A stretch of 64,000 nt of DNA from positions 1 to 64,000 of the forward strand of contig JAIUMA010000013.1 of assembly GCA_022565795.1 (NCBI GenBank). The letters run 5' to 3'. The notes under the pieces were generated by a model. That model had not been told where the DNA came from. It did not search any database and saw nothing but the letters and a program-made list of their open reading frames with translations. Below, one piece after another: positions 40,966 to 43,137 of this stretch. Both the position numbers and the translations under genes were made by a program. Source of the DNA: Balneolia bacterium (GTDB lineage Bacteria; Bacteroidota; Rhodothermia; Balneolales; Cyclonatronaceae). Positions within the stretch are counted from its first letter, which is position 1, and every line of letters begins with the position of its first letter.

Positions 40966-42300
40966 ATGCCAAGAAAGAAGAAAGATGCCAAAATCTTTGT
41001 ACTTGATACCTCAGTACTACTCTACGACTCCGATGCGGTCAGCAACTTTGAAAAGCACGATATAGCCATCCCCATTACCGTTCTCGAAGAGATCGATTCA
41101 TTCAAGAAAGGAAACTCGGTTACAAACCTGCACGCCCGTGAATTTATCCGGTATATGGATAAGATCTCCGATGCTGGTCAGATTATGAACTGGATCCCCA
41201 TAAACGGGAAGTCAACCGGGAAGATCCGGGTGGTGAGCGATATGGGCAGCATTACAAACGCCAACGAGATATTCGGAAGCGTAAAAAACGATCACCGCAT
41301 CATTAACACAGCACTGAAGCTGCGAGAGGATGAGCCAAACCGGAAGGTGGTTCTGGTATCCAAAGACATCAACCTGAGGCTAAAAGCCCGGGCCCTGATG
41401 CTCGACGCCGAGGATTATGAAACGATCCGCATTAAGGATATTGAGCATCTCCACCGGGGCAAGACCGAGCTTAAGCTTAAATCCAAGACGGTGATTGATA
41501 AGCTCTACCGCGAGGGAAGCGTTACGGCAGAGGAAATCGGTGAGGAAAACCCGACCCTCAATCACTACTACATTCTCAAGCACAACTCCGCTTCGGCCCT
41601 GGGTTACTACAATGCCCAAACCCGGATGATTGATCTGGTATCACCGGCCAACGCCTACGGAATCAAGCCCCGCAACGCCGAGCAGACCTTTGCGATGCAC
41701 GCAATAATGAATCCGAATATTGAGCTGGCGACCATAACCGGTTCGGCCGGCACAGGGAAAACGCTGCTGGCTCTTGCCGGTGCGATTGAGCAGCGTAAAC
41801 ACTATCGCCAGATCTATCTTGCCCGGCCTATTGTGCCCTTGAGCAACCGGGATATCGGCTACCTTCCCGGCGACATCAAGTCAAAAATTGATCCCTACAT
41901 GCAGCCGCTGTGGGACAATCTGAGCATCATCAAAAATCAATATCCCGAAAGCTCAAAACAGTTTCAGAAGCTCAATGAGCTGGTGCTTCAGGAGAAGGTG
42001 GCCATTGTTCCGCTGGCCTACATCCGCGGCCGAAGCCTGAGCAACGTGATTTTCATCGTGGATGAAGCGCAAAACCTGACGCCCCACGAAATCAAGACCA
42101 TTATTACCAGAGCAGGGGAGCAGACCAAAATCATCTTTACCGGTGATATCTTCCAGATCGATACGCCCTATCTGGACGCCCAAAGCAACGGCCTGTCTTA
42201 TCTGGTCGACCGCCTGCACAACAACGAGATGTATGCGCACATCAACCTCGAAAAAGGCGAACGCTCCAAGCTGGCGAATCTGGCGAGTAAATTGTTGTAG
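40966..42300 (+). CDS. PhoH-family protein: PIN domain fused to a PhoH ATPase
   Basis: 444 residues. The N-terminal PIN nuclease domain begins KIFVLDTSVLLYDSDAVSNF and has VVLVSKDINLRLKARAL (acidic metal residues in FVLDTS and SKD). The C-terminal PhoH domain has Walker A TGSAGTGKTLLALAG, LARPIVPLSNRDIGYLPGDI, Walker B VIFIVDEAQNLTPHEIKTII and FTGDIFQIDTPYLDA. This is the PhoH2/YlaK group, a probable RNA helicase-nuclease linked to RNA turnover. Length matches. An intergenic repeat begins 6 bp after the stop codon. Confidence 0.93.
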   Translation: MPRKKKDAKIFVLDTSVLLYDSDAVSNFEKHDIAIPITVLEEIDSFKKGNSVTNLHAREFIRYMDKISDAGQIMNWIPINGKSTGKIRVVSDMGSITNANEIFGSVKNDHRIINTALKLREDEPNRKVVLVSKDINLRLKARALMLDAEDYETIRIKDIEHLHRGKTELKLKSKTVIDKLYREGSVTAEEIGEENPTLNHYYILKHNSASALGYYNAQTRMIDLVSPANAYGIKPRNAEQTFAMHAIMNPNIELATITGSAGTGKTLLALAGAIEQRKHYRQIYLARPIVPLSNRDIGYLPGDIKSKIDPYMQPLWDNLSIIKNQYPESSKQFQKLNELVLQEKVAIVPLAYIRGRSLSNVIFIVDEAQNLTPHEIKTIITRAGEQTKIIFTGDIFQIDTPYLDAQSNGLSYLVDRLHNNEMYAHINLEKGERSKLANLASKLL

Positions 42301-42305
42301 AGAGG

Positions 42306-42353
42306 AAGGACGCAAAGGGCGCGGATTATGACGCAAAGATTCGCAAAGGGTTT
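42306..42353. repeat. ACGCAGA-type intergenic repeat, copy 2
   Basis: Reads AAGGACGCAAAGGGCGCGGA then TTATGACGCAAAG..., close to copy 1 at 38413. It abuts the nested palindrome element that follows. Confidence 0.6.
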
Positions 42354-42360
42354 GTATGAC

Positions 42361-42534
42361 GGGGTGGTTTTTGATTGATGGTGTCACGTTCGGCGGGGTG
42401 ATGGGATTTGGGCGTTGATGGGTTCCGGGTGGTAGAGACGCAATGCATTGCGTCTCTACCACGATGCCCCATCAACGCATACCAATTACATCGAATTCCC
42501 CGCCAACGCCGGATTATCACCATCACACCCAACC
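42361..42534. repeat. Nested palindromic element, about 170 bp
   Basis: The core (42429-42462) is a perfect 34-bp palindrome centred on TGCA, with GTGGTAGAGACGCAA as the left arm. Outside it, GCGTTGATGGG (42412-42422) pairs with CCCATCAACGC (42468-42478), GGCGGGG (42392-42398) with CCCCGCC (42498-42504), and GATGGTG (42377-42383) with CACCATC (42518-42524). No transposase or reading frame is present. It resembles a MITE- or REP-like hairpin element. GTAGAGACGC...GCGTCTCTAC-type palindromes are known as repeats in cyanobacteria and Chlorobi. Confidence 0.75.
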
Positions 42535-42580
42535 CAAAAATAAATTCTAATCCCGCTATTGCCTTTTACAATTAATTCTG

Positions 42581-42615: not shown

Positions 42616-43137
42616 ATGACCAAACCGGAAATCATCCAGAATCTCATTAACGCGTATGCCGAGGCCTATCAGAATCTGGGCTACAGCTCGCTGATGGGAA
42701 AAATCGTGGCGCTGCTGATTGCCTCGCCGGAGCCGATGTCGCTGGATGAAATCTCCGGAGAGCTGCAAATGAGCAAGGGTCCGGTTTCCCAAATCGCCCG
42801 AAAACTGAAGGAACACCGCCTGATTGAAAAAGTCTGGATTCCGGGCGAACGCAAGGATTACTACCGCGCCGTCGAGGATATTTTTGGTCAGGCCTTTGCC
42901 AACTACGCTTCATCCATGCGCAGAAACCAGCGACTGGGTGAAGAATTTGAGCAGCTTTCCAAAGCCGTGCCCGCCCAGGATGAGCAAACGCGTCATCTGG
43001 CCACGCGCATGAACGAGATGAAGCTGTTTTACGAAATGATGGATGAAAGCAACCGCGCGTTCCTCCAAAACTGGAGAGATAACGTGAAGCCCGGCCTTGA
43101 AGAGCTGCAGGACGAGCCGGCCGGCAAACAGTCCTGA
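42616..43137 (+). CDS. GbsR/MarR-type transcriptional regulator
   Basis: 173 residues with a winged helix: SLDEISGELQMSKGPVSQIA (HTH) followed by RLIEKVWIPGERKDYYRAV (wing), then a helical dimerisation tail. The pattern KGPVSQIARKL and RKDYYRA match GbsR-type regulators, which respond to small ligands. It stands at the head of the SDR-KAS-symporter-ligase-MaoC gene set on the same strand, 137 bp upstream of it, and palindromes sharing TATTTGAAA lie before both. It is therefore the likely regulator of that set. The ligand is unknown. Confidence 0.88.
   Translation: MTKPEIIQNLINAYAEAYQNLGYSSLMGKIVALLIASPEPMSLDEISGELQMSKGPVSQIARKLKEHRLIEKVWIPGERKDYYRAVEDIFGQAFANYASSMRRNQRLGEEFEQLSKAVPAQDEQTRHLATRMNEMKLFYEMMDESNRAFLQNWRDNVKPGLEELQDEPAGKQS

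Follow-up and report, generated by a model that had tools for sequence, protein, structure and literature searches.

The 64,000 nucleotides analysed here from a Balneolia bacterium (contig JAIUMA010000013.1; referred to below as the window) carry a perfect palindrome behind phoH, and we asked what kind of element it is, how it could have arrived there, and what could account for the mirrored sequence on either side of it. The palindrome is 34 bp long, and its two arms of 17 nt each (42429-42445 and 42446-42462) are 100% complementary and loop-free around a centre at 42445/42446. A first-pass annotation had described both this perfect core and its centre; both were confirmed, and the core is certain. 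It had also placed the palindrome between PhoH and a regulator and held that it encodes no protein, and both statements stand: the palindrome lies between phoH and the next gene and itself encodes nothing. The features of the locus are listed in Table 1. The stretch just past phoH (42301-42350) also contains a repeated GACGCAAAG motif (AAGGACGCAAAGGG ... ATGACGCAAAGATTCGCAAAGG).

Table 1. Positions of the palindrome, its arms, its flanks and the neighbouring genes in the window.
Feature	Position	Strand	Remark
34-bp perfect palindrome	42429..42462		28-bp REP plus 3 private bp per side, GTG/CAC
28-bp double-foot REP	42432..42459		foot GTAGAGACGC, variable inner palindrome AATGCATT, foot complement GCGTCTCTAC; sole unit recurring in the genome
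Second nested left arm GCGTTGATGGG	42412..42422	+	11 bp pairing with 42468-42478; no other genome copy
Second nested right arm CCCATCAACGC	42468..42478	+	partner of 42412-42422
Third left arm GGCGGGG	42392..42398	+	partner 42498-42504; weak alone
Third right arm CCCCGCC	42498..42504	+	partner 42392-42398; weak alone
Fourth left arm GATGGTG	42377..42383	+	partner 42518-42524; weak alone
Fourth right arm CACCATC	42518..42524	+	partner 42377-42383; weak alone
phoH (PIN_4 and PhoH ATPase by Pfam)	40966..42300	+	REP begins 131 bp past its stop codon
Downstream ORF, 173 aa	42616..43137	+	MarR/GbsR-like regulator by appearance; no Pfam match
Left 100 bp, G/T-rich top strand	42332..42431	+	GC skew +0.56
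Right 100 bp, C/A-rich top strand	42460..42559	+	GC skew +0.62 read towards the core

The search of the organism's own genome (3.59 Mb) returned three copies of the core, each exactly 28 bp long, in the window, on contig C110 and on contig C25; the reversed pattern, used as a control in the same genome, gave zero copies. Because the three copies share 28 bp while the outer arms of the window copy recur nowhere, the repeated unit is GTAGAGACGC-N8-GCGTCTCTAC. The first-pass annotation had drawn an element of about 170 bp; only 28 bp of it recur, the outer arms are private to the phoH site, and no second copy of the region outside the core was found in the own genome. A 170-bp miniature transposon (MITE) is not supported, since the whole unit with its arms is not repeated elsewhere and the core alone recurs.

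The annotation was right that the GTAGAGACG...CGTCTCTAC palindrome is repeated: the copy count in genome and relatives, which it had proposed, gave three copies here and more in relatives, and not a single copy without relatives. The inner 8-10 bases differ among copies and are mostly still palindromic (e.g. AATGCATT, GATGCATC and AAAATTTT). Copies occur in the organism's own genus, family and order and across the phylum, and their distribution among relatives is patchy, with 21 in G005, 29 in G006, 28 in G009, 4 in G002 and highest counts of 29-39; the same search of the congeners G001, G003 and G004 found no palindrome. The exact foot was present in 10/98 genomes and foot variants in 28/98, and across the phylum 50/394 genomes were positive. 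One locus (L040, G005:C1:1052807-1054501) holds five REP copies about 400 bp apart with alike flanks, apparently a tandemly duplicated segment. A perfect dyad upstream of a regulator gene could also be a protein-binding operator for the regulator at 42616. This is hardly probable, as the same sequence also turns up in a kinase gene, a RAYT gene and many intergenic sites, settings unrelated to one another, and the length of the 28-bp unit is constant.

The check for a REP-associated transposase, also proposed by the annotation, showed that a RAYT gene is present in the own genome. It lies on contig C25, is intact, and carries one of the three 28-bp copies in frame (L003 1501-1528, inside the ORF at 1170-1952), with the same feet as the window copy and GATGCATC instead of AATGCATT as inner sequence. 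This copy is located between the HUH and Tyr motifs in a loop predicted to be disordered: residues of about 96-182, including the palindrome-encoded DRRDAMHRVST, were mostly below pLDDT 50-55. The protein (P0001) has the motifs MPNHIH and YIINNP, and at the W position WHVRFHDHIIRN it has WH and not the WQ of most homologues. Its match to NF047646 (REP_Tyr_transpos) had E=3.5e-13, under the curated cut-off, and NF047646 scores ranged over 43-68 bits (E 3e-11 to 6e-19), below the curated 80 bits. Because the variable loop interrupts this match, the protein is classed on profile, motifs and fold as a relative of RAYTs rather than as an NF047646 equivalog. The best solved-structure match of the family profile was TnpA-REP 4er8 (E=1.7e-6), and Foldseek with the predicted model gave a probability of 1.00 to 4er8 and to IS200/IS605 transposases, including ISDra2 and IS608.

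A PF01797 search of the own genome gave no match, probably because the loop splits it, and the RAYTs were found instead by protein query. Two further RAYT-like ORFs of the own genome, one full-length (C50) and one partial (C27), were inspected and contain no such palindrome. No second palindrome, and thus no REPtron-type flanking REP, was found around the own-genome RAYT gene; flanking copies do occur in relatives, for example in G057 (C17: 166588, 167083 and 167490, around and inside the RAYT gene). Among 98 genomes, a RAYT was present in 27/28 palindrome-bearing genomes compared with 17/70 of the others (Fisher p=1.5e-11). RAYT genes fetched from GTDB, which were mostly from Bacteroidota, had a strong palindrome between HUH and Tyr in 49/70 cases compared with 4/70 for an equal upstream stretch (p=5e-16). 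The inner sequence of these palindromes differs among genes, with GTAG..CTAC mostly kept at the ends.

These features match a known class of repeat. In Quentin 2018 (PMC6006769), TnpA-REP subclass 2.4 is defined by the protein motifs NH[IFV]H, WQ and YIxNNP together with double-foot REPs, in which GT[AG]G and its 3' complement C[TC]AC stand at the ends of a long hairpin; the hallmark of the subclass is an in-frame insertion of REPs into the transposase gene itself, between its HUH and Y motifs. The locus resembles subclass 2.4 (RAYT group 4), as described there, in its GTAG end with the complement at the other end of a long hairpin (28 bp, perfect), in a cognate transposase with NH[IFV]H, YIxNNP and the TnpA-REP fold, in the in-frame copy between the HUH and Tyr motifs, in its host range, the subclass being one of Bacteroidetes/Cyanobacteria and scattered phyla, and in dispersed genome copies, few here (3) and 21-29 in G005, G006 and G009. 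It differs in the low copy number of the own genome (3), and in that, at the own-genome RAYT gene, the pattern occurs inside the gene and not beside it. According to the same text the in-gene copies are additional to flanking ones, which are found near most but not all genes, so the missing flanking REPs breach a usual, not a strict, feature. The mirrored outer arms and the mirrored GC skew described below are likewise not among the features described in the available part of that work. We had considered the in-gene RAYT palindromes as an unpublished feature, and rejected this because they are already in Quentin 2018.

The GTAG REPs of Di Nocera 2013 (PMC3733652) share the GTAG tag, the RAYT association and intragenic in-frame copies, and some of their families lie inside larger palindromes; they carry a single unpaired GTAG next to stems of mostly 6-13 bp, whereas here GTAG pairs with the far-end CTAC. 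Rickettsia palindromic elements (RPE) are similar in standing in frame in protein genes, but RPE-4 and RPE-6 fall in CGTC families without an associated transposase (PMC3733652). Given the match to subclass 2.4 of Quentin 2018 and the features shared with the REPs of Di Nocera 2013, the phoH palindrome is very probably a dispersed double-foot REP with a cognate of RAYT/TnpA-REP subclass 2.4. The earlier idea of a palindrome mobilised in trans was thus right in kind (a REP repeat, a RAYT present, and co-occurrence of the two), while a mobile element of 170 bp is unsupported.

In any transcript that reads through from phoH, the palindrome would form a strong RNA hairpin; the whole palindromic region has an MFE of -97.6 kcal/mol (z=-7.4). 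The very stable hairpin behind phoH, and REPs at one other site (asd) where congeners have terminators, would fit a selected, non-mobile RNA element, one that terminates or stabilises the phoH mRNA and shares the REP sequence by chance. We consider this quite improbable. A terminator scan of the palindrome region matched no canonical terminator and the T tract is absent, an Rfam scan of the region gave no family above threshold, copies lie within reading frames, and the palindrome is patchy in the genus, with G001, G003 and G004 lacking it. The phoH orthologues in G003 and G006 sit in other surroundings, and because phoH synteny is not kept in these relatives the window copy lacks a clean empty counterpart there.

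The four mirrored arm sets reported by the annotation held in part: the 34-bp core and the nested arms are present, while the outer arms are imperfect, interrupted and weak. Base-by-base alignment of the 90-bp flanks in the window was marginal (9/500 shuffles were as good when anchored and 117/500 in local alignment) because G and T prevail in the left flank and C and A in the right. The compositional mirroring at this site is strong; the outer arms exist but are weak. When the core was taken out and the two flanks were shuffled independently of each other, flank pairing gave z scores of -2.7, -2.7 and -3.5 for the three own-genome copies (window copy -2.7). Random positions of the same genome, used as control, had a mean of -0.2 (sd 1.3) with 6% at or below -2.6, and pairing of three out of three copies by chance has a probability of about 2e-4. 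All 18 scored copies in G009 have perfect arm extension of 2 to 13 bp, with a sharp drop past 12. Perfect extension was also seen in several copies of family f4 and was rare in the phylum-wide replicate; since it is common in some genomes only, arm growth is not a general rule.

The outer arms could be the target of the insertion and not its product, if the REP entered the centre of a pre-existing palindrome such as an intergenic terminator stem. According to Di Nocera 2013 (PMC3733652), palindromes of A. variabilis, T. roseum and H. neapolitanus contain REPs, and T. roseum also has such target palindromes unoccupied; the sharp stop of the G009 arms at about 12 bp also fits such a target. The C110 copy (C110:4002-4029, L002 1501-1528) argues against it. 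This copy lies in frame in a histidine-kinase gene (HisKA, HATPase_c), directly past the N-box NNAFDAMR in a stretch of variable length among homologues, and encodes VETQCIASLQ; the kinase still matches HATPase_c (8.6e-22). Homologues without the insert showed no flank pairing at the site (z -0.8, -0.9, +0.3 and +0.8), in a comparison of one locus with paralogues or distant orthologues.

The asd site of genus g17, compared in eight congeners (L353-L360), bears on the same question. Three of them (G028, G072 and G067) have REPs with differing, largely self-complementary arms, G056 has the foot variant GTAGTGACG, G038 and G070 have ordinary terminator-like hairpins, G082 has an inverted repeat but no REP, and in G060 the genes stand only about 10 bp apart. 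This variety suggests that REPs can stand in for terminators. The two congeners in which an ordinary hairpin terminator occupies the place of the REP speak for a pre-existing palindrome, but the almost empty site of G060 and the unlike arms of orthologous filled sites speak against it, and we regard this origin of the arms as unlikely, though it keeps appreciable weight. As far as these few loci go, the kinase and asd comparisons favour arms that formed after insertion. The inner stems also vary: at orthologous sites with the flanks kept they differ block by block, as though the stem had been exchanged whole, for example in L305 (ATGGGCCCAT) compared with L310 (CAGAGCCCTG). The pairs L271/L308, L305/L310 and L304/L307 are all orthologous REPs with the same feet and flanks and different inner palindromes.

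Across genomes, the strand with its 3' side facing the palindrome was G-rich on both sides over about 100 bp in 70/81 copies (p=3e-10), a set thinned by flank similarity alone in which genomes of one lineage are not independent. The mean skew was +0.13 at 20-100 bp and near zero by 200-400 bp (control -0.004). This mirrored skew was first spotted mid-analysis and then tested on a new set of independent genomes, where it was replicated (48/68, p=2e-4), with 21/22 at unidirectional sites. Gene orientation was rejected as the cause, as the skew was seen whether the neighbouring genes are convergent, unidirectional or (in relatives) divergent, and was weaker in intergenic-midpoint controls. Simple C deamination was disfavoured, the T-over-A skew being weak in most genomes. 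Other hairpins showed a skew of the same sign that was weaker (0.068 compared with 0.125); because this control set still contains degenerate REPs, specificity to REPs is not fully shown.

The arms could also be decayed halves of older REPs that were split centrally by a new one. Core-facing half-REPs are enriched within 100 bp (exact, 11 compared with 1; one mismatch, 28 compared with 10), and the window arm GGGCGTTGATGGG resembles the decayed 5' half of RAYT-borne palindromes such as GTAGGGGCGTT. This nesting is improbable as the source of the arms: the skew persists without a nearby half-REP (47/57 copies positive, p=2.6e-6), for which reason half-REP remnants were rejected as its sole cause, and conserved N-box coding sequence forms part of the kinase arms. 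RAYT loops such as L187, L201 and L042 have D/G/N-rich runs encoded left of the palindrome and P/Q/S/T-rich runs right of it. This residue bias is the protein-level image of the mirrored skew and repeat expansion. A literature search on GC skew around REPs returned nothing relevant, and no account of the unexpected flank pairing and mirrored skew around such repeats was found in the literature searched.

Judging from the sequences compared, the palindrome was probably spread by a "domesticated" transposase, in whose own gene a palindrome of the same kind is embedded. Because GTAG stands at each end, either strand, once single-stranded, can form a hairpin footed by a GTAG guide, and both DNA strands could thus serve as RAYT substrates. 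By analogy with its family, a single-strand HUH nuclease (the C25 RAYT or a relative in the lineage's past) would recognise foot and stem, and by cutting and joining single strands at replication forks it most likely placed the copy behind phoH. Cleavage of REPs by other RAYTs is described by Corneloup 2021 (PMC8266576), which treats the way REPs spread as unsettled in the RAYT field. With only 3 copies present, the family may be inactive in the own genome.

After insertion, the perfect hairpin could have acted as a template-switch site at which the palindrome was extended and renewed, and synthesis folding back on the hairpin would copy one flank to the other side and give mirrored outer arms specific to each site. 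Quasipalindrome template switching, in the available parts of PMC8794818 and PMC7202029, is a process that extends and perfects inverted repeats; it is a mutation process and not an element, and is proposed here as the arm source. Growth of the arms in place after insertion by such hairpin-templated DNA synthesis is a serious possibility that we put slightly short of even. By itself, template switching would produce mirrored arms but leave the sign of the GC skew free. A broader reading, which we offer tentatively and consider rather unlikely, is that double-foot REPs reshape nearby DNA: strand-specific templated synthesis (or break repair) driven by the hairpin would write the arms, leave the mirrored G-over-C skew over about 100 bp on either side and exchange the inner stem block-wise, with the result that palindromes expand outwards and are renewed at fixed sites.

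The lineage offers usable material on REP spread, with RAYT genes that carry their own likely substrate, an in-frame insert in a kinase gene, and orthologous sites in filled and nearly empty states. Confirmation of the skew and the arm growth would show that REPs alter the DNA next to them strand-specifically, with the skew marking the strands that are exposed during REP processing.
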